Source: Leptolyngbya subtilissima AS-A7 (GTDB taxonomy: Bacteria; Cyanobacteriota; Cyanobacteriia; Phormidesmidales; Phormidesmidaceae). Taken from it: 64,000 bases of DNA. The notes under the pieces are model-generated. The model was given only the letters and a program-made list of their open reading frames with translations. It was not told the origin of the DNA and made no database searches. Location: contig NZ_JAMPKY010000002.1 of the NCBI RefSeq assembly GCF_039962255.1, positions 310,001 to 374,000 of the forward strand, read 5' to 3'. How positions within the stretch are numbered: position 1 is the first letter of the stretch; every line of letters begins with the position of its first letter. Below, in pieces: positions 53,483 to 64,000 of this stretch. The translations under genes and the position numbers were made by a program.

Positions 53483-53556
<74 letters not shown>

Positions 53557-53689
53557 TAGTTTACTGCGCTCATTTTTGAGCTAGAAGCACCGTAGACAGG
53601 GCATTGTAGCTCTGTTACGGTTTATGTATTGTTGCTAGTTGTAGCTAGTTGTTGTCCATTGAGCCTTTGTATATAGGCAAAATCTAGGC

Positions 53690-54766
53690 ATGGATTTTGC
53701 AGAGCGGCTGAACCGTGCGAACGGTCGCCTTAAGGCGGCTAGGATTCGTGTACGGCTGCAAGTGCTCAATCAGAAGCTTTATGTCAGGGGCACGTTTCCC
53801 CCTGCCCCTGGCAGCACGAAAGATTCGCCACATCAGCAGCGGATCGCCCTGGGGCTACCGGCAAACCCTAGGGGCCTAGCTCTGGCCGAGGAACAGGCGA
53901 AGGGGATAGGGGTAGCCCTAGAGGCTGGCCGGTTCAATTGGGAGCATTACCGGGGCGACCGGGCCGAGACGGTAGGAGATTGGGTAGAGCGGTTTAAGCG
54001 TCGGTGGAAGGGTGCCGCTATCACCTGGAAAACCGATTACCAGCAGCCCTTTAATAAACTGCCCATGGATGCGCCGTTGACGGCCGTCCTGCTGGAGCAG
54101 ACCGCCGAGAAACGAACGGAGGAGGATTCGCGGTCGCGGCTGCGGGCCTGCAATGCTTACCGCCAGCTGGCAGAGTTCGCGGGCCTGCCGGTGGATGGTT
54201 TTGCCCAGCTCAAGGGCAGCTATAGCGCCGCGGCGGTTGACCCACGATCGTTGCCGACCGACACGGCGATCGCCCGCTGGCGAGACACCATCACTGATCC
54301 GGGGTGGCGGTGGCTATTTGGGATGCTGGCGGCTTATGGGTTACGGCCTCATGAGGTGTATTCCATCGACCTGGCCGACTTCCCCACCGTGAGGGTGCAT
54401 GAGGACACCAAAACCGGCTCGCGGTTTGTATGGCCACTTTACCCAGAGTGGTCAACCAACTGGGAACTAAACGTGGTGACCATGCCGCCGCTCGAAAATA
54501 TTGCCGGATGCAGCAACGGTCAACTGGGGACCAAAACGGCGAAGGCCTTTAACCGCTTAGGTTTTTGCCATGCCTATGACCTGCGCCACAGCTTTGCTCG
54601 CCGTTGTCTTGAGTTTGGTTACTCACCGGAATTTGGGGCCAAGCTGATGGGCCATAGCCCAGAGACACACTGCAAGGTCTACCGGCGATGGATTGATGAG
54701 GGCACCTATTGGGCCATCTACCAGGCAGGTGTTAGTCGGGCCGAGCGGCCTAAGCCACCAGCTTGA
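53690..54766 (+). CDS. int: Tyrosine-type site-specific integrase
   Basis: A 358-residue recombinase whose catalytic domain lies in the C-terminal half. Arg219 is in AAYGLRPHEV, Lys241 in HEDTKTGSR, Arg299 in YDLRHSFARR, His322 in LMGHSPET and nucleophile Tyr331 in KVYRRW. At position 296, where many relatives have the His of HxxR, this protein has Tyr. It starts 134 bases after tRNA-Cys. Upstream are tandem TAGTTGT copies (CTAGTTGTAGCTAGTTGTTG near 53634) that might be arm-type binding sites. Integration at the tRNA is inferred from position. Confidence 0.93.
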   Translation: MDFAERLNRANGRLKAARIRVRLQVLNQKLYVRGTFPPAPGSTKDSPHQQRIALGLPANPRGLALAEEQAKGIGVALEAGRFNWEHYRGDRAETVGDWVERFKRRWKGAAITWKTDYQQPFNKLPMDAPLTAVLLEQTAEKRTEEDSRSRLRACNAYRQLAEFAGLPVDGFAQLKGSYSAAAVDPRSLPTDTAIARWRDTITDPGWRWLFGMLAAYGLRPHEVYSIDLADFPTVRVHEDTKTGSRFVWPLYPEWSTNWELNVVTMPPLENIAGCSNGQLGTKTAKAFNRLGFCHAYDLRHSFARRCLEFGYSPEFGAKLMGHSPETHCKVYRRWIDEGTYWAIYQAGVSRAERPKPPA

Positions 54767-54785
54767 TAAAAGAAGGTTTTCTGGG

Positions 54786-55949
54786 TCAGTCTTGGTCAGC
54801 ACAAGTTACTGGCAAGAAAGCCAAAATAAGTTCCTTGTTAGCAACGAATCCTTTTGGTGTCTTTCGAACCAAGTTCATCTTCATCAACTCATTTAAATCT
54901 CTGGTTAATGTTTTGGTGGTTTTGGTAGCATACATCTCAGCCAGCTTTGGAGTTGCTTGAGTAATTTTATTTTTAAGCAACGGCTTATCACTATGAAAAG
55001 ACATTTCTAAAACAAGATTTCTCCTTCTAATATCCGACTGAGTATCTTTGTCAGCAAACAAGTCGTAAACCAAATCACTCCAAGCAATAATAAGCTGCTG
55101 AGCCCGAATCAAATCTATTTGCTCATCAAGCTTCTCCAAAAAGCCTTGAATAGCATACTTAACAAATTCTAGACATTCGCCCGTCTTGCTAGCATAGTCA
55201 AGTTGACGATAGTAGTTCTCTCTTGTGAAATTATAGTAATTACTAAGCAAGTGAGATACAGGCATTGGCAAACCGGCTTCAAGCAAGGTTTTAAGCTCAA
55301 TAAGCCTTGCCGTCCTTCCATTTCCATCATCAAAAGGGTGTATCCAGACAAAGTACAAATGAGACAAAATTGCCTTTAAAATTGCAATTGATGTCTTGTC
55401 TAAATCCAAGCCTTTCTCAAAGTTGTTGTACCAATCACAAAACCTATTTAAAAGCTCATAACAATATTCAGCTTTGGGAGCTAGATATCGACCCACACCC
55501 ACACTGCCCAACCGAATTTTTCCACTAATTTTTTCTTCGCCTAAAGGCAAATCTTTTAGGATTTTATAATTAAAGGATTCAATTAATCCTATGCTCAATT
55601 GAGGATCTTCGCATTGAGCTACACTTGAAACAATGTCGTTACAAGCATCAAGAACATTTTCAACTTCCTGCGCCAAATATTGTTGTGAGGACGGGAGTTT
55701 TAGGTCATGATGTAAGATGGCTTTAACTTGTTCTTCTGTTAAACTATTGCCTTCTATCGCAATAGTTGCTTGAACACCTTTAGCAAGGTAGAGTTCATGC
55801 AATATTTCAGCTACACTCGGCTTAAGAGGAACTCCAGAGATGTAATCACATTTAGATGACGCTTGGCCTAGTGATATCCAAAGACTTATAGGCGCTTCTT
55901 TCAGGTTTGGCTTGAAGTCAATCCATGGATGTGTAGCAGCTATAACCAT
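54786..55949 (-). CDS. Fic-domain AMP-transferase with N-terminal inhibitory motif
   Basis: A 387-residue Fic protein. The core motif HPFDDGNGRTAR (about residues 204-215) is complete. The motif TIAIEGN (about 62-68) fits the [S/T]xxxE[G/N] inhibitory helix of class II Fic enzymes. A C-terminal winged-helix-like region (about 330-375) follows. Fic proteins transfer AMP to protein hydroxyls; the target is unknown. The start at 55949 is backed by GGAGG six bases upstream. The gene is strikingly AT-rich compared with its neighbours and lies between integrase and excisionase, so it looks like later-acquired cargo. Confidence 0.9.
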   Translation of the reverse strand: MVIAATHPWIDFKPNLKEAPISLWISLGQASSKCDYISGVPLKPSVAEILHELYLAKGVQATIAIEGNSLTEEQVKAILHHDLKLPSSQQYLAQEVENVLDACNDIVSSVAQCEDPQLSIGLIESFNYKILKDLPLGEEKISGKIRLGSVGVGRYLAPKAEYCYELLNRFCDWYNNFEKGLDLDKTSIAILKAILSHLYFVWIHPFDDGNGRTARLIELKTLLEAGLPMPVSHLLSNYYNFTRENYYRQLDYASKTGECLEFVKYAIQGFLEKLDEQIDLIRAQQLIIAWSDLVYDLFADKDTQSDIRRRNLVLEMSFHSDKPLLKNKITQATPKLAEMYATKTTKTLTRDLNELMKMNLVRKTPKGFVANKELILAFLPVTCADQD

Positions 55950-56109
55950 CTTGTCCTCCCATGATTGTCCTACCACTCGTCTTACTACTTGTCCAGCTTA
56001 ATCCCTTGTAGTACAAGGGCTAAGCCTGATTTTATTCTAAATCTTGTCCACAGCTTATGGCCTCACTCAAAAGGAAACATTGGCTGCTGGTGGAGCGGAG
56101 CGCCCGGCC

Positions 56110-56325
56110 TCAAGCGCCGGTCTGAGTCTCTACCTGGCTTTGCCACTTTTCCAGGCGATCGCCGTGCCAAAGGTAGGTGAGCCGTTGCGCGGTGGGGTTT
56201 TTCACTTTCCAGTGCTCGCCTTTCTTTAAATCGCCATTTTGGCGAGCATTAGCCAGCACCCACCGGCTGATGCCCAGGCGCTGACAGGCGGCGGCGGTGC
56301 TGAGCCATGGGGATGGTTTAGTCAT
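56110..56325 (-). CDS. Small HTH protein, possible excisionase
   Basis: A 71-residue basic protein with STAAACQRLGISRWVLANARQNG, a MerR-like winged-helix pattern seen in excisionases and phage regulators, followed by GEHWKVKNPTAQRLTYLWHGDRLEKW. It is the last gene of the minus-strand operon and overlaps the preceding gene by 8 bases (ATGACTAA). Xis function is inferred from size, fold pattern and presence beside an integrase. Confidence 0.6.
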   Translation of the reverse strand: MTKPSPWLSTAAACQRLGISRWVLANARQNGDLKKGEHWKVKNPTAQRLTYLWHGDRLEKWQSQVETQTGA

Positions 56326-56659
56326 CGACTTTCACCCCCCATTCTTCTACTAAGCGGGTGAGCAGGTAGACCCAATCAGTTTCGGTGAGGCCATCGAAAA
56401 CGCGATCGCAGTATTCCTCTATCGACGCTTCGACATTTGGGGGCAGCTCGGGGGGCGGCTTGAGGAATAGGCGATAGGTGCCGTCGCGGCTCTCACTTGT
56501 GAGCATGGAAGGGCCTAGGAGGTTTTGTACGTTATTTTTTACGTCCTCCACGGGTTTAGAGCCGTCGAGCTGGCGAGCTAGGGCCATGCAGGCGGGGATA
56601 GCGTGTTTGGGCAGCCGCACGGAGTCGGTGGGGTTGTTCCACTTTGGGGGTCTAGGCAT
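56318..56659 (-). CDS. Unknown operon protein
   Basis: A 113-residue protein (MPRPPKWNNPTDSVRLPKHAIPACMALARQLDG, then LTRLVEEWGVKVDD). I do not recognise the family. The early RLPKHAIPACMALARQLDG stretch could be a short ribbon-helix-helix-like DNA-binding segment; that is a guess. It overlaps both neighbours by 8 bases (ATGACTAA downstream, ATGCCTAG upstream), which supports the ATG at 56659 and a translationally coupled operon. Confidence 0.7.
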   Translation of the reverse strand: MPRPPKWNNPTDSVRLPKHAIPACMALARQLDGSKPVEDVKNNVQNLLGPSMLTSESRDGTYRLFLKPPPELPPNVEASIEEYCDRVFDGLTETDWVYLLTRLVEEWGVKVDD

Positions 56660-57023
56660 CGTCAAGGGCCTCCCACTTGATGAGCACGCCTTTAAAGTGT
56701 TCTGAAGCAGGGCAAAAGAACCAGAGGAACTCTGGAATATCGCCAAAGCCATCGTCTTGGACCAGCTGCTGCACCTGGTCGACGTCGTTCAGAAGCTCAC
56801 CGTCGAGGTAGACGCGACCATCAGGCCGGATTTCTATTGCCCAGGTGTTTGAACATTTGACCAGAGCCAGCAGACGGCAAGATTTAGTTCTCATGCCGGT
56901 ATAGAGCTGAAGGGTGTCACCAGGCCTCGCGTGGCGGCGTTTCCCCGTGCGGCGTATGGTTTGGGTCTTTTCGCCCCGCTCTACGGGGCCAGCAAATTGA
57001 GGTTTGAAGTTATAGGCAACCAT
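56652..57023 (-). CDS. ASCH-like domain protein
   Basis: A 123-residue protein beginning VAYNFKPQFAGPVERGEKTQTIRRTGKRRHARPGDTLQLYTGMRTKSCRLL, the pattern of ASCH/PUA-like domains often found in phages and mobile elements. It may bind or modify RNA or nucleosides; no activity is shown. The ATG at 57023 is chosen over 57059. It overlaps the next gene upstream by 14 bases. Confidence 0.72.
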   Translation of the reverse strand: MVAYNFKPQFAGPVERGEKTQTIRRTGKRRHARPGDTLQLYTGMRTKSCRLLALVKCSNTWAIEIRPDGRVYLDGELLNDVDQVQQLVQDDGFGDIPEFLWFFCPASEHFKGVLIKWEALDDA

Positions 57024-57264
57024 GGCGCTGCTCCCTCTGTATGGCTCCGAGATCGCCAATTAGCTTCACCAGGCCGCGGCGGTCGAGGGTTTTGGAGTCT
57101 TCGCCGCACAGTGACGTTAAATCAGCCCAGGTGTAGCTCAGTGAATGCCGGAGGGAATCGACCTGGGCAATGAGATCGCCTAGATTGTCGCCACCGGTAG
57201 CTGGGGTGGCAGCAGGTGCAGCTGCGGGGCCGCGATATTGGGCAAGGATGGGGCGCTCACGCAT
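57010..57264 (-). CDS. Small unknown operon protein
   Basis: An 84-residue protein with an Ala/Pro-rich N-terminus and a helical C-terminus (GDLIAQVDSLRHSLSYTWADLTSLCGEDSKTL). It recalls short primase-associated proteins but is not recognised. The ATG at 57264, with GGTAGGTGA upstream, overlaps the primase stop by 8 bases (ATGCGTGA); a GTG at 57273 is an alternative start. Confidence 0.65.
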   Translation of the reverse strand: MRERPILAQYRGPAAAPAATPATGGDNLGDLIAQVDSLRHSLSYTWADLTSLCGEDSKTLDRRGLVKLIGDLGAIQREQRHGCL

Positions 57265-58717
57265 GGCAGTCACCTACCGCGCCGGGCTTCCAGTCTAGGG
57301 AGGGTAACCAGCCTGTGGATATCCCTTCCCTCCCCTCGCGCTCCCCTCCCTTCCCTTGGGGAGGTTTAAATTTTGAAAGCGGGTTTTCAGCAATACACGC
57401 TTCATTTTCCCCCCCATTGCGTGTAATAGGCCCATTACCAACGCTTTCGAGGCTTGCTAGGATCGCAGCTCTGACCTGCTCTTGGGTGGCTGAAACGCTT
57501 GGTATAGCGTCTATTACAGGCATTGCAGGCTGCGATCGCTCTGGGTGCCATAGATCGGCGTTCTTATAGAGGGTCTGGGAAGAGGTTTGGGCGGCTTTGG
57601 CGAGGTGTTTGACTAGCCACGAGACGGTAAGCCCGACCAGTTCGCCAAGCTCGCGCACGGCGGCGGCGATGCGATCGCGGGCATCTTCTGCGCGGGCTTT
57701 GTTGACCCCTGTGCGGGTTCGGTCTCGGAGGGGCGTGCTACCCAAGGGCCAGTAATAATTGCTGGCGCTGGCGGCCCAGGAAATGGCTTTGCGGTGGATT
57801 TGGTGTTGGTGTTGGCACCATTGCTCAAAGCCGGGGCAGCTGGTGGCTGTGGTTTCAATGTATTCCACCAGTTCGGTAACGCCTAGGCCTTTAAAGACTC
57901 TGCCGTAGGTGGCGATCTCTTTGAGCAGCATGTTGGTCTGGCCGTGATCGGTCCAGCCTTCGGCAATCATGGCTTCTAGGTCGTTCTTCCAGTCTTCGAC
58001 GGGGCCGCTGGCTTTGGTGCGGTAGCGGTGGCGGCGGTTGGCCCTGGCGACGGCGATCGCTTCGCTGATGGTCTCAGCGTCGTTCTGCAGGACGGCGTTA
58101 TCCCACTGGGCGAGGAAGAGGGCGAGGTCATAGGCCCCGCTGATGGGGTTTAAGTCTTCGTCGAGGACGCAGGCCCCGGTCATGGGTTGAAGGGGCAGTC
58201 TATGGCCGTTGTATTCGGTAAACTGCTTTTTCCAGAAGTTGCCCCAAGATTTCACGTTGGGGAAACATTCGAGCTGGCCAGGGGCGATTTGCAGTCCCTG
58301 GGCTTCTAAACACTGCTGAAGTGCGCAGGCCACCGAGAATGTGGGGTAGTGCTGAGGGAGGGGGCAGTAGATGTGGATGCCGCCGCTCCAACTGCTGCGG
58401 AGAATGATGACTCTTACGATGCCGATAGTCTCAAGGGCGGCAAGAATATCGTCGATGCGCTCTAAATAGGCGCTGGTGGCATCGATGTCGATCAGGCCGT
58501 AGCCGGTGGAGCTGCCGAAACGAACGCCGACGACTCGCTTGGGGTCTTGCCAGGCTGACCAGAGCACTCGGGGCTTGATGCGATATTTGCTGTTGGTCTT
58601 CCAGGCGGTGCTGAGGTGGTGCTGCTCTAGGGGGGCTTCTAGCCACTTCCAGCCGTAGCCAAAGATTTGGGTGAGCTTGGCCCCGTGGGGGTGCGAGGGG
58701 TAGAGAGCTTGTTTCAT
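57257..58717 (-). CDS. AEP-like primase / replication protein
   Basis: A 486-residue protein. Residues 74-79 give GLIDID, a DxD pair of the archaeo-eukaryotic primase motif I; residues 109-117 give SWSGGIHIY, like its motif II with a His. The C-terminal part (about 330-400) is helical and may bind DNA. A low-complexity Gly/Glu/Arg tail ends the protein. Comparable primases serve plasmid and integrative-element replication. It heads the minus-strand operon. Catalytic residues are matched by eye, so activity is inferred. Confidence 0.68.
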   Translation of the reverse strand: MKQALYPSHPHGAKLTQIFGYGWKWLEAPLEQHHLSTAWKTNSKYRIKPRVLWSAWQDPKRVVGVRFGSSTGYGLIDIDATSAYLERIDDILAALETIGIVRVIILRSSWSGGIHIYCPLPQHYPTFSVACALQQCLEAQGLQIAPGQLECFPNVKSWGNFWKKQFTEYNGHRLPLQPMTGACVLDEDLNPISGAYDLALFLAQWDNAVLQNDAETISEAIAVARANRRHRYRTKASGPVEDWKNDLEAMIAEGWTDHGQTNMLLKEIATYGRVFKGLGVTELVEYIETTATSCPGFEQWCQHQHQIHRKAISWAASASNYYWPLGSTPLRDRTRTGVNKARAEDARDRIAAAVRELGELVGLTVSWLVKHLAKAAQTSSQTLYKNADLWHPERSQPAMPVIDAIPSVSATQEQVRAAILASLESVGNGPITRNGGENEACIAENPLSKFKPPQGKGGEREGREGISTGWLPSLDWKPGAVGDCHA

Positions 58718-58754
58718 GTTTAATATTGATTAAGTCGAATTGAATCTGTTGAGC

Positions 58755-58796
58755 AAAAACGGCGATCGCCTAGTTGGGGGCGATCGCCGTTTTTTT
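58755..58796. terminator. Strong hairpin in the primase-operon leader
   Basis: A perfect 16-base stem AAAAACGGCGATCGCC and its complement, 8-base loop, T-runs on both sides. It stands between divergent genes, 38 bases before the primase start, with no upstream gene on the plus strand. It could attenuate the primase transcript. HIP1 sequences form the core. Confidence 0.65.
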
Positions 58797-58919
58797 AGTG
58801 CCTATGCGGATGTGGCCAGGTAGAAACTTTGGCTTTCATGGAGAAGAGTCCACTGTTGGGATAATTGGGTTTCACTCAGCGGCCAAGCCGGCAAGCAATT
58901 CCGCTGAGCGAATGTTCAC

Positions 58920-58970
58920 CATGCCCGATTGGACATGTTATGCTTAGCGTAGCATGGCCAAGCGGGCATG
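58920..58970. promoter_or_regulatory. Palindromic operator in the divergent control region
   Basis: CATGCCCGATTGG (58920-58932) and CCAAGCGGGCATG (58958-58970) form a 13-base inverted repeat with one mismatch. ATGCT (58940-58944) and AGCAT (58951-58955) form a smaller dyad at its centre. The sites lie just before the HTH gene and some 200 bases before the primase operon, so the HTH protein is a natural candidate to bind them. Confidence 0.6.
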
Positions 58971-58988
58971 ATCCGCCCTGGTCATGAA

Positions 58989-59240
58989 ATGTCTCAAGAA
59001 AGAGCCGTGAAGGTGATTGAAAGAATCAGAGAGTTAGGTCTCACGAACAAAGCGGTTGCTGACGCCGTAGGTGTTGGCGAGCGCTCGGTTTATCGCTGGT
59101 TCAGCTATGAGAGAGAGCCCAGACTGAATTTCCATCAGGTCGCGGCTCTCTGCACAGTGCTCAATTGGAGTGTGCAGCAGCTTGCTGAGGCATACCATCC
59201 ACCAGAAGCCAATGAAAAAGGGGCCGCCCTCGAAAGCTAG
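58989..59240 (+). CDS. HTH regulator (Cro/CI-like)
   Basis: An 83-residue single-domain regulator: AVKVIERIRELGLTNKAVADAVGVGERSVYRWFSYEREPRLNFHQVAALCTVLNWSV has the five-helix Cro/CI pattern (helix-turn-helix at about 18-38). Start 58989 (MSQERAVK) is preferred; the ATG at 58968 lies in the operator arm. Divergent from the primase operon and preceded by the palindromic operator, it probably represses both directions, including itself; inference. Confidence 0.78.
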   Translation: MSQERAVKVIERIRELGLTNKAVADAVGVGERSVYRWFSYEREPRLNFHQVAALCTVLNWSVQQLAEAYHPPEANEKGAALES

Positions 59241-59283
59241 CCCCCTCTGTTCACTGTCCATCTAAAACAGGAACCACCCAATT

Positions 59284-59619
59284 ATGAATGATGCGATCGC
59301 CCCTGGCTCGGGGGCTACTTTTTCATGCCCAGACAACGGAGAACAGCCCACCTTCTACGGTGCCACCCGCCTGGCCTTCCTTCGCGACATGGAAAACACC
59401 TGCTCTGAAATGGTGAGCGTAGCCACCAACTACCAAGAGCGAGACCCTAGAACCGTTCTGGCAGGAAGAATAGAGGCCCAAACCGCCAGCGGCTATCTAC
59501 TTGCTGTTCGCATCTCCCACGACACGCCGCCAGAGATATTAGCCGCAGCTGCTGACCTCTATGAAGCGATCCAGCAGCACTACCGCCAATCAATCGGCGA
59601 ATCTGACTGCCCTTTTTAG
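59284..59619 (+). CDS. Unknown element protein
   Basis: A 111-residue protein (FYGATRLAFLRDMENTCSEMVSVATNYQERDPRTVLAGRIEAQTASGYLLAV). Not recognised. It is mixed alpha/beta, cytosolic, without cysteine motifs of note. Start: ATG 59284 preceded by AGGAACC with an 11-base gap, the same leader type as the following genes. First of the plus-strand series after the regulator. Confidence 0.65.
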   Translation: MNDAIAPGSGATFSCPDNGEQPTFYGATRLAFLRDMENTCSEMVSVATNYQERDPRTVLAGRIEAQTASGYLLAVRISHDTPPEILAAAADLYEAIQQHYRQSIGESDCPF

Positions 59620-59693
59620 GGATTCAAAATTGTTAAGCCCAGGGGCAGTCGTCAAACAAGACCCCTGGGATGCCCTGCACGGACATAACCATT

Positions 59694-59870
59694 ATGACCA
59701 CCCGAGACCGCTTTACAACCGCTTCCGCAGCTCCTGAAAATGCCACCGCTAACTATCGCGACCTTCACGCCGTAGATGAGGTGGGCGAGAAAATCTATCG
59801 AGAGAACAGAGACTCCGGGCGGCTAACGGCCCACATGCAGGCCATTCGCCTCATTAGCTCTGTTCAATAA
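59694..59870 (+). CDS. Small unknown element protein
   Basis: A 58-residue protein ending HAVDEVGEKIYRENRDSGRLTAHMQAIRLISSVQ, probably helical. Not recognised. The ATG at 59694 is chosen over 59670 because GGACATAACCATTATG gives the spacing shared with the neighbouring genes. A terminator follows 15 bases after the stop. Confidence 0.55.
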   Translation: MTTRDRFTTASAAPENATANYRDLHAVDEVGEKIYRENRDSGRLTAHMQAIRLISSVQ

Positions 59871-59884
59871 CCGTCGCTGAGCCC

Positions 59885-59915
59885 GCGCCCCCATTCTCCT
59901 TGGGGGGCGCTTTTT
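59885..59915 (+). terminator. Terminator between small element genes
   Basis: GCGCCCCC (59885-59892) pairs with GGGGGCGC (59903-59910), followed by TTTTT. It separates the first two small genes from the rest of the series. Confidence 0.85.
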
Positions 59916-59941
59916 GTCGTTTAAAGAAGGACAAACCTCTT

Positions 59942-60172
59942 ATGACCACAGACCCGAACGAGCTGATCGTTGGATATGGCGAGGCAGACGGCCTTACCAA
60001 ACGCGAATACTTTGCAGCCCTGGCCATGCAGGGGCTCTTAGCGTCTGAGCGGGTTGGCGAGCCTGGCTCCGTTAGGCATCCCGGTAATGTCGCTGACCTT
60101 GCAGTAGATCAGGCCGATGAACTGATCGCATCTCTGAACAGTCCGTACAAGGGGAATAAGGCCGATGGCTAA
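59942..60172 (+). CDS. Small unknown element protein
   Basis: A 76-residue protein (MTTDPNELIVGYGEADGLTKREYFAALAMQGLLASER). The GLTKREYFAALAMQGLLA stretch is often seen in short phage or plasmid proteins, but no function is known to me. The ATG at 59942 is preceded by AAGGACAAACCTCTT, the shared leader; the ORF from 59900 is too long. Its end overlaps the next gene by 8 bases (ATGGCTAA). Confidence 0.65.
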   Translation: MTTDPNELIVGYGEADGLTKREYFAALAMQGLLASERVGEPGSVRHPGNVADLAVDQADELIASLNSPYKGNKADG

Positions 60173-60368
60173 CCCTCGAAGTCAAGCTCAACAAAAAATC
60201 CTCAAGCAAATTGAGGCCCAGGGCCACTACAAAACCACATCAGACCGCAGCGCCAAAGTAGCTCGCTCGCTCTCCAATCAGGGAGTGCAGCACATTTTTA
60301 GCTGCGAACTAGATGAGGCCCCAGGCAAGACCACCCACCGCTTTGCAAAACGCCAGCATTGCCGCTAG
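60165..60368 (+). CDS. Small basic unknown element protein
   Basis: A 67-residue, strongly basic protein (AQQKILKQIEAQGHYKTTSDRSAKVARSLSNQG). It may bind nucleic acid. The 8-base overlap with the preceding gene supports the start and indicates translational coupling. Confidence 0.6.
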   Translation: MANPRSQAQQKILKQIEAQGHYKTTSDRSAKVARSLSNQGVQHIFSCELDEAPGKTTHRFAKRQHCR

Positions 60369-60419
60369 TTCTGCCCAGGGCCTGGCCCAAAGTCATCACA
60401 CAAAGGACACCCCCACATT

Positions 60420-60890
60420 ATGAAACCGATTCACGGGGCATTCGCCCTAGCCATCATTGGTACCTCAATACCCAGCGTTAGCAACCTTGGCGACTTCGCC
60501 TCGAAAGTCACCACCGCCCGCGCCGAAGCCAGTCGTATCGGCGATGACATGACCGAGCTCACGCTGAGCCAGCAGGAGCAGGCGCAAAAAAACGAGGTGG
60601 CGATCGCCCGCTATCAAACCGGCTGCATTCCAGTGGTGAGTGTTGACCAGCTGCGCTATGTCTCGCTGGTGCTCAACCTGCCAGTCATCGACAGCGCTTC
60701 TAATCAACCCATTCCGGTGGGTTCTGTCGTCTGCGATGCCCACGGCAACACCGGCGTCATTACCGACGACGACAGCGACCCCAACACCCCAGGCGTCACC
60801 CAAAAGATGGCCTTTACCGGCAACAAATCCTTAGTCGACTCACGGATGAGCCACTACCAGGGGGCCGCCTACTACATGCCCTCAAACTAA
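60420..60890 (+). CDS. Unknown element protein with N-terminal hydrophobic segment
   Basis: A 156-residue protein. Residues of about 5-20 (GAFALAIIGTSIPS) form a signal or anchor, followed by a polar coiled-coil-like stretch (AEASRIGDDMTELTLSQQEQAQKNEV) and a beta-rich C-terminus. Two cysteines (GCIPVV, VVCDAHG) could pair outside the cell. Preceded by AAGGACACCCCCACATT (shared leader). Envelope location is inferred; function unknown. Confidence 0.65.
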   Translation: MKPIHGAFALAIIGTSIPSVSNLGDFASKVTTARAEASRIGDDMTELTLSQQEQAQKNEVAIARYQTGCIPVVSVDQLRYVSLVLNLPVIDSASNQPIPVGSVVCDAHGNTGVITDDDSDPNTPGVTQKMAFTGNKSLVDSRMSHYQGAAYYMPSN

Positions 60891-60904
60891 GCCGAGCAAA
60901 CCTC

Positions 60905-61330
60905 ATGACCTCTAAAACCGCTGACCGTTTGTTTAACCTGAGCGCCCACGTTGAGCGCATCGTTCACCTGGGCTACATGGCCTCCGACAGCACTTCCGAG
61001 GCGCTGAGGGATTTCTTGGAAGAGATCGACCACCAAGAGTTAGGGCGGCTCTTGAGCCTGAGCGACGAAGAGCAAGATTCGCTGAGCGAGATTCTGTCTC
61101 ACGGCGATCTGTTAGAAATTGTCACCGAGCTTGGCAAGAGTGGCTTTTTGCTCGAAGTGCAGGGCCGCATCTACCGCCAAGTATCGCCAGGCCACTACAC
61201 CGGCACCTGCTCGTCGGCGGTGGCGTATGCCTACGCCCCCAAGGCCACCGACATCGATGCAGCCATCAACAAGGCCCTCGACCACCTTGAACCGCGCCTG
61301 AGGGAGCCTGCCGAGAGCGTCGCGGAATGA
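60905..61330 (+). CDS. Unknown acidic element protein
   Basis: A 141-residue acidic protein, helical in the first half (ALRDFLEEIDHQELGRLLSLSDEEQDSLSEIL) with a more mixed C-terminus (EVQGRIYRQVSPGHYTGTC). It follows 14 bases after the preceding gene. No family recognised; possibly an adaptor or anti-regulator in the same series. Confidence 0.6.
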   Translation: MTSKTADRLFNLSAHVERIVHLGYMASDSTSEALRDFLEEIDHQELGRLLSLSDEEQDSLSEILSHGDLLEIVTELGKSGFLLEVQGRIYRQVSPGHYTGTCSSAVAYAYAPKATDIDAAINKALDHLEPRLREPAESVAE

Positions 61331-61399
61331 GCGACCTTGACGCTCGGCTCCGCCGCATCCGCCTAAGTCCCAGCAAACCTTTAGAAGAGACTTGAACCC

Positions 61400-62065
61400 A
61401 TGACTACCTATTACGGAAAAAAACGCTCAACTCGCTCCCCCAACTCAGGAGCCAAGACGGCCCGGCAGCTGCTCTACTGGCTCGCCATCTGCGTGGCCTG
61501 CGTCGTGGCAGCTGCAAACATGCTGCCCTACTGCAAAGCGGTGTCTCTAGCCCTGATTAACATCTTTGACCTGCAAGGCCTGGTGGGCTTCTTTGGCAAT
61601 CGTGCCCTGGCCCTCATTTCAATCCCCGTTGGGGTCGTGCTGTGGGCCTTCATCCAGTCGGCAGAGACCTACCCCATTCTGCTCAAGCACGACCGCAAGC
61701 TGATGCGCCTGATCGCCCTCGAAGCCGACTCAGCCGAGCAACTCCAGGTGAATGAAGACGACGATCCCGCCCTGGTGCGCCTGAAGGAGTGGTACAACCG
61801 TTTCCCCCTGCTCAGCATTCGCACTGCTAACCGGGCCAGCCTCTGCGCCTACATCGTCGATACCTTCCTCTGCTTAACCGTCTTCCCCCCCGTCGATGGC
61901 GGGTTTGGGCAGCTGGTGTTCGTCATCTTCACCGGCCAGTGGGGCCTCATCAACTGGGGCAGTGTCGGGCTGATCGTTACCATGCTGTTCTGCTTTGAAC
62001 TGATGGTCCGCTTCATCCTGTTTCTCGGCGTGCAGTGGCACTACATGAAGCGCGCCCACGGCTAG
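61400..62065 (+). CDS. Multi-span membrane protein of the element
   Basis: A 221-residue protein with a basic N-terminus and four or five hydrophobic segments (about 25-45, 60-85, 145-165, 170-215), interrupted by a polar loop (95-130). It has no recognised family signature. It lies directly before the DNA-translocase-like gene with 50 bases between, so it may form the membrane port for that ATPase; inference from context only. Confidence 0.7.
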   Translation: MTTYYGKKRSTRSPNSGAKTARQLLYWLAICVACVVAAANMLPYCKAVSLALINIFDLQGLVGFFGNRALALISIPVGVVLWAFIQSAETYPILLKHDRKLMRLIALEADSAEQLQVNEDDDPALVRLKEWYNRFPLLSIRTANRASLCAYIVDTFLCLTVFPPVDGGFGQLVFVIFTGQWGLINWGSVGLIVTMLFCFELMVRFILFLGVQWHYMKRAHG

Positions 62066-62115
62066 ACAACACGGCAACCGGGGGCAACGATGCCCCCTTA
62101 CTTTTTGGTGAAACC

Positions 62116-63561
62116 ATGAGCAATTTAGTAGTCAAATCTCACCCCCTCTGGATTGATACCGCCGAGGATGCCGCCGAGGGCATGCACAACCCCAAACTCT
62201 ATATCGGGGGCGGCCTGGCCGGTGGTCTCGTGCTCGGTAGCCTGCTGAACCCCCTCTCTGGCGTCGCGGCTCTAGCCTATGGCCTCTACCTAGCCTGGGA
62301 TGCCAACGAGCGCAACAGTGACCAGATCGAGGCCGTCAGCGATGGGCTCATCGCTCACCTGCTCGACAAAAAGCAGCTGCGCAAATATCAAGCCGATGTC
62401 GGGGCCGACCAGGTGCAGGCCGAGCTAACCCAGGCGATCGCCCGCGACCTGCGCCTGTCAGACGATGCCGAAACGCTGGCCAAGTCGTTGGGCCTGCTGG
62501 GCAAACCCAAGGCACTGCCCCAACTGCCCCCAAAGCCCTCAGAGGCAGCAACACCTAGCCCCTCGGCTGATGCTGCCCCGGTGCCCCTCGCCCCCATCAA
62601 ACTAGATCCAGACTGCCCCCACTTCCTGCTGCTGGCGGGTAGCCGGGAGGGCAAAAGCAACGCCCTGCGCTGCCTGCTCGATGGCCACGCTCGCGTCAAC
62701 TACGTCAGCACTAAGGCCACCGACCAGGTGCCAGCCCACTGGGATGGCTACGTTCTCTGGGGCAAGCCGGAGGAGAAGGGTAAGCAGCTGCAATGGTTGC
62801 TCGCCCACTGGGGGGCAAAGCTGGCCGCCCATGCCGAGGGCACCGATACTGAGCCCGAGTGGTTTGTCTTTGATGAGGCGATTCAAATTCGGACCTACGC
62901 CAAGCGCTCAAAGGTGAAAGGCCTGGCTGATGCCCTCGCTGGGCTACAGGTTGAAATTGCGACCCAGGGGGCGGCGATCGCAGCCTATGGGGTGCTGCTG
63001 GCCCAGACCAAGAACGCGGGGCCGTTGGGTATCGACCTCGACCTGTTGCAGCAAAATTTCAGGATGGTGCTGCCGCTGAAAAGTAAGCGACGATTGGCCC
63101 TTTCCGTGATTGAAAAGATGGGCGGTCTAAAGCTCACTACTGAGCAACGGGAAGACATTCTCAGCCACCCTAACCGCTACCTCCAACTGTGGTTGGGAGA
63201 GGATGAAGACATCTACCACGATGTCTTGCCCGAGTTCAAAGGGGAGTTAAAGCCGCTGGTTAAATGCCCCACAGAGGATGAGATTAATCGCCCCAAACCT
63301 GCTACTACAGTCATCAACCCAGGCGACGATAAGCAGCTAAATCTTGAGGCGATCGAGGGGATTATTTTTGAGGTTTTAGCCGCGGCCTCTGAGCCGCTGA
63401 AAGCGCACGAAATAAAATCAAAACGGCAAAAGCTAAAAGACCTAGAGGGGGGATTATTTAAAGCGGTTCTGGCGGGCCTAGTTAGGCTCAGCCGGATTCA
63501 CCAGACGCAGGATGAACCACCCCGCTATACCCTACCCCCCGACTCGTCCCCCACCGGATGA
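62116..63561 (+). CDS. Membrane-anchored FtsK/HerA-like DNA-translocase ATPase
   Basis: A 481-residue protein. An N-terminal hydrophobic pair (about 28-62) anchors it, and a Pro/Ala linker (about 130-165) leads to the motor. Walker A AGSREGKS lies at 174-181 and Walker B WFVFDEA at 249-255. A C-terminal winged-helix-like segment (about 405-475, LEAIEGIIFEVLAAASEPLKAHEIKSKRQKL) could bind DNA. Such a build occurs in FtsK and in the Streptomyces TraB family. It starts at 62116; the in-frame ATG at 62035 overlaps the preceding gene. CATCCGG repeats follow immediately. DNA pumping is inferred. Confidence 0.75.
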   Translation: MSNLVVKSHPLWIDTAEDAAEGMHNPKLYIGGGLAGGLVLGSLLNPLSGVAALAYGLYLAWDANERNSDQIEAVSDGLIAHLLDKKQLRKYQADVGADQVQAELTQAIARDLRLSDDAETLAKSLGLLGKPKALPQLPPKPSEAATPSPSADAAPVPLAPIKLDPDCPHFLLLAGSREGKSNALRCLLDGHARVNYVSTKATDQVPAHWDGYVLWGKPEEKGKQLQWLLAHWGAKLAAHAEGTDTEPEWFVFDEAIQIRTYAKRSKVKGLADALAGLQVEIATQGAAIAAYGVLLAQTKNAGPLGIDLDLLQQNFRMVLPLKSKRRLALSVIEKMGGLKLTTEQREDILSHPNRYLQLWLGEDEDIYHDVLPEFKGELKPLVKCPTEDEINRPKPATTVINPGDDKQLNLEAIEGIIFEVLAAASEPLKAHEIKSKRQKLKDLEGGLFKAVLAGLVRLSRIHQTQDEPPRYTLPPDSSPTG

Positions 63562-63677
63562 GAAAAACCATCCGGTGGCATCCGGTCTATATCTGGCAGG
63601 GCATCCGGCCATCTGGTGAGCCTCATCCGGCCATCCTGTAGGACGCCTCACCGGATGCCGCAGGATACCTGCCAGAT
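63552..63677. repeat. CATCCGG repeat and nested inverted-repeat locus
   Basis: Seven-base CATCCGG occurs six times in 107 bp: plus strand at 63569, 63579, 63602 and 63624; minus strand at 63554 and 63651. CATCTGG (63610) is a near copy. CACCGGATG pairs with CATCCGGTG (63552-63577), and ATCTGGCAGG (63591-63600) pairs with CCTGCCAGAT (63668-63677). A longer 18-base stem forms with an internal bulge. It may be a DNA-binding locus (origin or transfer site) or an extensive RNA structure. Confidence 0.65.
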
Positions 63678-63749
63678 GGAATGAAATATTGCCTTAAAAT
63701 CAATTCACCACACCACACCTCTAGTTACGGCTGGGGTGTTTTTTATTGT

Positions 63750-64000
63750 CTATCGGCGGTCTCGAATAATGTCTTCGATCGTCTTCTCAACGCACCAATT
63801 CAACGGGCGGCTCAGGTTGCGCTTCATAGTAGCCTCCAACAATCTCGAAGCCACTTCATGACTGTGGGTATACGCCGTTACTTGGCTAATAGCATGTTTG
63901 ACGGCGTGCTCAACTTCTTGGTTGTTTGCGTAAACCATCTGAGCCGATCGCCGAGTCCGCTTTCGGTTGCCTCCACGGCTAAAAAACGGGTGTTTTTTTA
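63750..64000 (-). CDS. Unknown protein, partial at the right edge
   Basis: The ORF ends at 63750 and stays open to the window edge: HPFFSRGGNRKRTRRSAQ precedes the ATG at 63938, then YANNQEVEHAVKHAISQVTAYTHSHEVASRLLEA. The start is therefore probably outside the window, though ATG 63938 (62 residues) is possible. The basic N-terminal part and helical remainder are not recognised. It converges on the repeat locus. Confidence 0.5.
   Translation of the reverse strand, partial: KKHPFFSRGGNRKRTRRSAQMVYANNQEVEHAVKHAISQVTAYTHSHEVASRLLEATMKRNLSRPLNWCVEKTIEDIIRDRR

Follow-up and report, generated by a model that had tools for sequence, protein, structure and literature searches.

An element integrated at a tRNA-Cys gene of Leptolyngbya subtilissima AS-A7 with a candidate self-addressed motor for double-stranded DNA

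The genome of the cyanobacterium Leptolyngbya subtilissima AS-A7 contains an element of 19,058 bp (counting both flanking repeats), integrated at a tRNA-Cys gene. It carries three genes, here called the trio, which encode p156, the membrane protein tm221 and a P-loop ATPase, and the ATPase gene is followed by an array of short repeats. The stretch analysed, referred to as the window, comprises 64,000 nucleotides (contig NZ_JAMPKY010000002.1, positions 310,001 to 374,000; G000:C2:310001-374000), and the reading was extended rightward beyond it. On balance, we consider it probable that this is an integrative, circularising element moved by a self-addressed double-stranded DNA (dsDNA) motor, and that the motor probably serves transfer from cell to cell. 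The covariation of the array with the winged helix of the ATPase is a much stronger sign of a system resembling TraB/clt of Streptomyces than the gene order is. The trio and its array are located as follows:

60420..60890, + strand: trio protein 1 (p156), 156 amino acids, present in 25 of 25 trio loci
61400..62065, + strand: trio protein 2 (tm221), polytopic membrane protein of 221 amino acids with five hydrophobic segments
62116..63561, + strand: trio protein 3, P-loop ATPase with a C-terminal winged helix, 481 amino acids
63569..63678, either strand: putative recognition array, CATCCGG on both strands, five exact copies and three with one mismatch, orientation >>>)>)<(

The ATPase, whose Walker A and DEA motifs were read from the sequence, is made up of a hydrophobic N-domain, a P-loop motor and the C-terminal winged helix. 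The latter was modelled by AF2 with a pLDDT of 73-84 over residues 411-470, and gave VIA Z scores of up to 10.1. Of nine divergent relatives, eight have a hydrophobic segment in the N-domain, and that of the window ATPase does not reach the cut-off of 1.6; p156 shows the same pattern, with a hydrophobic segment above the cut-off in eight of nine divergent relatives and none in the window. The original prediction, made from the letters of the window, had described a membrane-anchored, FtsK-like ATPase with a winged helix. The winged helix is borne out by modelling and structure comparison, and the description as one membrane-anchored motor is retained; the FtsK assignment gained no support from Pfam, as no family matched the window ATPase at E ≤ 1 and hence no FtsK_SpoIIIE (PF01580). 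That VIA returned no FtsK, HerA or TraB structure among the 50 matches listed is uninformative, these having been taken up by winged helices.

Two motor types occur in the family. They are 14-20% identical to each other, with little similarity outside the P-loop, which reads AGSREGKS or AGTREGKT in the window, L004-L009 and L016, and GPQGSGKS in L011-L014. The N-domain and related C-domains can be common to ATPases with either type. When L011:10001-11404 is compared with window:62116-63558, a different P-loop motor is seen to be substituted, the N-domain being still 72% identical. L008 and L009 have a different N-domain (18-28% identity) joined to a motor and winged helix as in the others.

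Short repeats after the ATPase gene had been part of the original prediction, and they proved to be far from random: five exact copies of CATCCGG within 200 bp were reached by 0 of 200 shuffles. The sites lie in the 110 bp that follow the ATPase stop, forward ones first and then reverse, at irregular spacing. As five of the eight exact sites in the 20.5 kb of the window element fall in the array, we regard it as a loading site and not as a genome-wide signpost. Related ATPases have arrays of other motifs: GTGTGGG in L004, L008 and L090; GTAGGTG in L005, L006, L009 and L089; TGTCTCG in L011 and L014, and TGTCTTG in L012 and L013, L011 being mixed; CGTTCGG in L007; and CGTCTGGTG in L119. A further family of the class has TGTAGCA (L138), CGTGGCA (L143), CTGATGG (L139) and others. 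Most arrays change orientation partway, and some are regularly spaced, at 10 bp in L008 and at 11-12 bp in much of L014.

The association with the ATPase gene was counted over 41 ATPases, after two truncated ones (L010, L083) and two duplicates of L016 (L015, L017) had been dropped. Within the first 200 bp, a 7-mer present in at least four copies accompanies 24 of the 41 ATPases and 3 of 269 other genes; with at least five copies the figures are 18 of 41 and 3 of 269, representing 13 different motifs. From -450 to +200, at least five copies were found for 27 of the 41 ATPases and for 7 of 212 other genes (Fisher 7e-20, the loci being non-independent). The 200-bp comparison is the cleaner one, because the larger region was picked after internal arrays had been seen. 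Two of the seven non-ATPase genes with arrays correspond to clusters beside the phage trio and two to clusters in replication genes. The plasmid pIJ101, tried as a positive control, yielded a GC-rich cluster (CGGCCCG) that is not assignable to clt, and the method stands without a positive control.

Some arrays lie inside the gene. In L127, L130 and L136, GGTTCAG arrays are located within the ATPase gene, ahead of the part encoding the C-terminus, where the copies are translated in different reading frames, which argues for selection on the DNA. L084 and L087 also have internal repeat clusters; L084 was rejected as a case of a downstream array, its repeat lying in a different stretch and the candidate array being internal. 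Nor was TTCACA of L016 counted as a downstream array, since the cluster is upstream of the trio: this tailed-phage contig has two repeat clusters there, GTCACAGTAGT and TTCACA (L016:7480-8380). Repeat clusters are also seen within the ends of replication genes, in L007:3697-7080 (GTTGACA, seven copies) and L008:3367-5739 (TGTTGAA, five copies), and may possibly be iterons.

Comparison of the arrays and ATPases of 16 loci, with 5000 label shuffles, indicates that the repeat motif tracks the winged helix and not the membrane N-domain. In the 11 pairs sharing a motif, winged helices are 88-96% identical and N-domains anything from 18 to 97%. The window ATPase and those of L004 and L005, which have different motifs, show 90-92% identity in the N-domain, 94% in the motor and 18% in the winged helix. 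Pair by pair, identities in N-domain, motor and winged helix are 90, 94 and 18% for window/L004, 92, 91 and 55% for window/L007, and 95, 96 and 79% for L004/L005, the motifs being different in every case. The observed difference was attained by 0 of 5000 shuffles for the winged helix, 0 of 5000 for the motor and 859 of 5000 for the N-domain; pairs with near-identical motors that differ in winged helix and motif separate the effect of the motor from that of the winged helix. Between L011/L014 and L012/L013, winged helices are 86-90% identical and the main repeat is one base apart (L011 mixed). This one-base difference between L014 and L012/L013 argues for stepwise co-change as well.

Wherever one of the three trio genes is present, the other two are as well (25 of 25 loci). 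As these loci were retrieved via the ATPase or tm221, the presence of p156 is the independent part of this count, and L015-L017 share one trio. A single-protein search across 291 genomes of the class found tm221 in 36, representing 23 of 130 genera; among the 63 genomes of the order, 14 have the ATPase, in up to six places per genome. The trio is carried by integrated elements, by plasmid-like contigs that have either a ParA-like gene or a replication gene of the DUF3854 (CyRepA) type, and by tailed-phage contigs, among them L017, with tail and baseplate genes, and L016, with a terminase (8e-19). Three IMG/VR contigs carry the trio, all sharing one trio region. In PLSDB, the window ATPase had no match; the remote ATPase of L143 matched 18 plasmids, mainly over the motor, from Nostoc, Tolypothrix, Aulosira, Trichormus, Calothrix, Microchaete, Scytonema or Fischerella, which are typed there as mobilizable (7), conjugative (5) or non-mobilizable (6). 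An array directly follows the ATPase relative on Scytonema plasmid6 (17.3 kb) and Fischerella plasmid5 (24.5 kb), both complete, typed non-mobilizable and with no typed relaxase; a Trichormus plasmid and two Tolypothrix plasmids have none (best, three copies). tm221 also matches Kovacikia. The plasmid genera with a match to the ATPase or tm221 are filamentous; as a rough background, the CyRepA-type replication gene also matches unicellular genera (Synechococcus, 24 records; Picosynechococcus, 9).

The borders of the element are exact. Its left end is defined by two features:

53486..53556, + strand: tRNA-Cys (GCA), integration target, its 3′ half being attL (ARAGORN)
53511..53558, + strand: attL core, 48 bp, with an exact copy at C2:382521-382568, attR, beyond the window

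The two repeats are 100% identical over 48 bp (blastn, E 6.6e-21) and correspond to the 3′ end of the tRNA-Cys gene. The second tRNA-Cys core, for which the original prediction had advised looking to the right, thus closes the element at C2:363511-382568, its right end being equivalent to window position 72568. The empty site, which was likewise to be sought in related genomes, is present in G033, where the left flank (93% identical) directly joins the right flank (92%) with nothing inserted. In G026, G043, G042, G023 and G038, a second copy of the repeat follows the tRNA-Cys end after 10-21 kb, with related genes between; because these five further genomes are occupied, the site is a hot spot. 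At the tRNA-Cys site of G023 (contig 4, L123), two integrases and repeated small genes are present, probably a tandem of elements. Named close relatives are found in Nodosilinea, Leptolyngbya, Phormidium and Tildeniella.

A related element in G045 forms a contig of 19,415 bp whose ends overlap exactly by 127 bp, from which a circle of 19,288 bp is deduced. In it the integrase gene adjoins p103, and between them lies one tRNA-like 3′ end, read by eye; ARAGORN found no whole tRNA. The junction is apparently the expected attP, although tandem copies would give the same picture. In this circular relative (contig 31, L147, identical to L010) the ATPase is shortened to 322 amino acids and no array follows it, as if the transfer part had been lost.

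We worked with a set of 28 genes for the element. The left part begins with the genes for the integrase, a Fic protein, a Xis-like protein, p144, p135, p87 and an AEP-like protein; then follow, on the strand opposite to the AEP-like gene, the XRE gene, small genes, p156, p141, tm221, the ATPase and the array. The main features outside the trio are:

53690..54766, + strand: tyrosine integrase, 358 amino acids (PHROG 1 integrase 1.6e-13; Pfam Phage_integrase 3.8e-4, below cut-off)
54786..55976, - strand: Fic-domain protein, 396 amino acids (Pfam Fic 4e-13; PADLOC SoFic 4.4e-53)
56110..56325, - strand: excisionase-like HTH_17 protein, 71 amino acids (HTH_17 E 0.0021, below cut-off; PHROG excisionase 0.035)
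57257..58717, - strand: AEP-like primase/replication protein, 486 amino acids, assigned from motifs only
58968..59240, + strand: XRE-type repressor, 90 amino acids (HTH_3 1.5e-6)

Most of this gene content had been anticipated. The original prediction of a tyrosine integrase next to a tRNA, an excisionase-like protein, a repressor and small proteins including membrane ones (here tm221) agrees with these matches, and its AEP-like primase holds by motif: D77, D79, R107-SS and SGG-H115 are unchanged in nine of nine relatives, and the protein matches no Pfam family at E ≤ 1 and no NCBIfam at 0.5, hence no Prim-Pol family. Also in line with it, no relaxase, type IV secretion system (T4SS), capsid or large terminase was matched when the 28 element proteins were scanned with Pfam and 20 of them with PHROGs, a small-terminase PHROG match of the XRE protein aside (0.0038, among 47 families, of which the 25 listed are mostly regulators). 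Among 35 compared loci, the AEP-like family is present in 12, the Xis-like family in 8 and the Fic gene, which that prediction did not mention, in 1; the Fic gene is on this account regarded as cargo. Its product, with the motif HPFDDGNGR, is probably a defence protein or a toxin. As it was the only PADLOC match among 10 proteins, the trio is no known defence system there.

The right-hand part, convergent to the left one, begins inside the window and runs beyond it:

63750..64000, - strand: start of the right-hand module, a 122-amino-acid transmembrane (TM), basic protein running beyond the window
L002:751-9373 (C2:373750-382372), opposite strand: right-hand module, 12 genes

The order is TM, FHA-TM, p129, p268, p244, p150, p169, p82, p195, p271, p829, p103 and attR. 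The FHA-TM protein matches Pfam FHA (1.5e-14). The fibre-like p244 matches a PHROG minor tail protein (4.3e-16) and a virion structural protein (2.6e-8); its matches include three PHROGs classed as 'head and packaging', the best at 2.6e-8. A PHROG scan of nine more proteins, from the right-hand modules of L008 and L014, detected no capsid. The AF2 model of p271 reached a pLDDT of 38, from two sequences only. Relatives of the module are found in varying sets on many cyanobacterial elements (L075-L082, L091, L092, L119-L123, L126), in which p103 and p829 are joined by p271, p195/178, p82, fibres, FHA-TM or tm122; in L014 and L081, the p829 relatives have collagen-like stretches of G-X-Y. Since some elements have the block together with the trio and others have the block but no trio, it constitutes an independent second module, possibly for adhesion to partner cells or for a virion-like structure.

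Taking these data together, the element would be excised as a circle by the integrase and the Xis-like protein and replicated by the AEP-like protein. The N-domain of the ATPase would anchor the motor, presumably a hexamer, in the cytoplasmic membrane together with tm221 and p156, and the winged helix would bind the array beside its own gene, so that the motor is loaded on its own element and not on others. Pumped by the motor, the element would then cross the membrane in double-stranded form and enter a neighbouring cell; the most plausible routes are along the filament or to a cell in contact. The outer membrane might be passed at septal contacts within the filament, or by competence uptake in the recipient, as is reported for TdtA (PMC5365140). 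On plasmids that also carry a relaxase, the motor may provide one of two transfer routes, or local spread.

Several results weigh against a self-addressed transfer motor. No outer-membrane component is known. The motor permutes as strongly as the winged helix because the two motor types have also been swapped, and joint recombination explains part of the covariation because the array adjoins the winged-helix code. Eleven of the 41 ATPase loci have fewer than four copies beside the ATPase stop. A profile search for tm221 in 244 genomes of the phylum found three, compared with 36 of 291 in the class. On many plasmids the ATPase is not the sole transfer system, 12 of the 18 being typed mobilizable or conjugative, and other related elements have the same right-hand module and no trio (L075-L082, L126). 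The motor fold is also loosely defined: the AF2 model (nine sequences) has an overall pLDDT of 46, poor outside the C-terminal domain, and among generic P-loop matches of 16 relatives, Pfam HerA appears in 3 (best 4.4e-4) and FtsK in 2 (best 0.025). The type I motor has no PDB sequence match below E 0.5 (single-sequence best 0.14, unrelated). The type II motor matches RecA fusions at 2e-9, a value summed from short P-loop matches with no single stretch passing, and the HerA model at 7.5e-4, below the model cut-off. In motor profile comparisons FtsK (87%) or HerA (89%) came out best, over 25-41 columns only, with the ParA control at 7% and 32%.

An array and a winged-helix binder also resemble a centromere and its binder, and the ATPase could position or segregate the circle by partition or membrane tethering, with no export. 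The trio is often found on replicons that have genes for plasmid replication, and FtsK-like motors are known to function in segregation. We nevertheless consider this unlikely: a ParA-like gene (recognised by its P-loop start, with no model) is already present on five trio replicons (L005, L009, L011, L012, L013), a Tolypothrix plasmid of 13 kb, on which the ATPase gene is annotated as two coding sequences, has annotated ParA and ParB, an integrated element hardly needs such a function, and a membrane trio would exceed it. It is more doubtful still that the array is an operator or a set of replication iterons for another element protein, linked to the ATPase by position only. The clusters inside the replication genes of L007 and L008, and the adjacency of array and winged-helix code, fit this; yet the array stays with the ATPase across a change of replication gene (AEP-like in the window, one for 1126 amino acids in L007), swaps of N-domain and motor leave its motif tied to the winged helix, and it lies downstream of or inside the ATPase gene, not at a promoter.

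Another possibility is a provirus, in which the ATPase would drive packaging or extrusion, and a tailless or filamentous virion with fibres would be encoded by the right-hand block. The tail and virion matches of p244 speak for it, as do the long co-directional block p103-p829-p271-p195-p82, common to other integrated elements, and the trio on IMG/VR contigs. Those three contigs, however, represent one trio region, and the ATPase is unnecessary for packaging on such phages, because L016 has its own terminase and L017 its tail and baseplate genes. Moreover, plasmid-like loci carry the trio without the right-hand block, the block occurs without the trio, Pfam and PHROGs matched no capsid family in the element proteins, INPHARED held no match for the ATPase or p271, and IMG/VR pattern scans gave no relative of p271, p195 or three other ATPases of the family. 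A provirus appears improbable. The original prediction had envisaged a viral genome with structural genes beyond the window; that alternative gains slightly from the fibre-like genes, and loses by the lack of a capsid or large terminase among the proteins scanned.

Among known systems, actinomycete integrative and conjugative elements (AICEs) such as pSAM2, as outlined in the cited excerpt (PMC3218068), share with this element an integrase at the 3′ end of a tRNA, here with flanking direct repeats, a Xis-like protein, a primase-like Rep, a repressor, one motor and a length of 19 kb, and the proteins scanned agree with them in lacking relaxase, T4SS, capsid and terminase. The window primase gave no match to a Rep of the RepSA, RepAM or Prim-Pol type (Pfam E ≤ 1, NCBIfam 0.5), nor did the window ATPase match PF01580 of Tra proteins, which is weak in two of 16 relatives (best 0.025). 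As these two defining families failed, the element is not classed as an AICE. Of the AICE-like reading proposed originally, the integrative element, the one winged-helix motor, the membrane partners and the repeats are retained, and membership is given up: FtsK and Prim-Pol fail, the host belongs to a non-actinomycete phylum and there is an extra, fibre-like right-hand module. ICETh1 of Thermus thermophilus, which mediates transjugation, spans 14.9 kb, lies at a tRNA and has a repeat of 47 bp; for it the passages cited report a membrane motor of FtsK-HerA type (TdtA), uptake through the competence system of the recipient, and no relaxase or T4SS (PMC5365140). It differs in that TdtA is accompanied by the NurA nuclease and restriction/methylation genes, and the same passages describe no recognition array. 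In FtsK/KOPS and SpoIIIE/SRS, too, oriented sequences of 8 bp direct the motor, and in FtsK the gamma subdomain reads them, according to the excerpts cited (PMC2680272, PMC5869595); their sites are spread over the chromosome, whereas here they are clustered beside the gene.

The closest parallel is TraB/clt (TRS) with Spd proteins of Streptomyces. According to the portions of the literature cited (PMC4170104, PMC12857230), both have one membrane motor with a C-terminal DNA-reading domain and short repeats, of 8 bp for TraB and 7-9 bp here, as well as membrane partner genes in the same cluster and a filamentous or mycelial host; in this element, too, no relaxase or T4SS was detected. The window ATPase has a C-terminal winged helix and, in its N-domain, a hydrophobic segment below the 1.6 cut-off, and covariation suggests that the repeats in cis match the reading domain and would be bound by it. 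The window ATPase differs in having no FtsK Pfam match, a separable N-domain and motors that can be swapped, an array directly at or inside its gene, and a cyanobacterial double-membrane envelope around it; many plasmids with an ATPase relative also carry a relaxase. As far as sequence can show, the element would work like TraB/clt. No recognisable TraB/clt-like system in cyanobacteria was met in a search of open-licence PMC papers, among the matches listed. We propose, tentatively and at somewhat less than even confidence, that filamentous cyanobacteria have their own widespread transfer modules, free of relaxase and T4SS, each a membrane trio in which an array at or within the motor gene directs the motor to its element, with cassette-like swaps of DNA-reading domains and motors, and that this second TraB/clt-type system, perhaps independently evolved and once more in a phylum of multicellular filaments, could serve spread along the filament. 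If so, such a class would go unseen, as illustrated by the two small array plasmids typed non-mobilizable in PLSDB. The natural set of swapped winged helices with matched arrays is a ready protein-to-7-mer code whose specificity is directly testable and, if the system serves transfer, it can be tested whether multicellular filaments in two phyla share one solution for spreading dsDNA.

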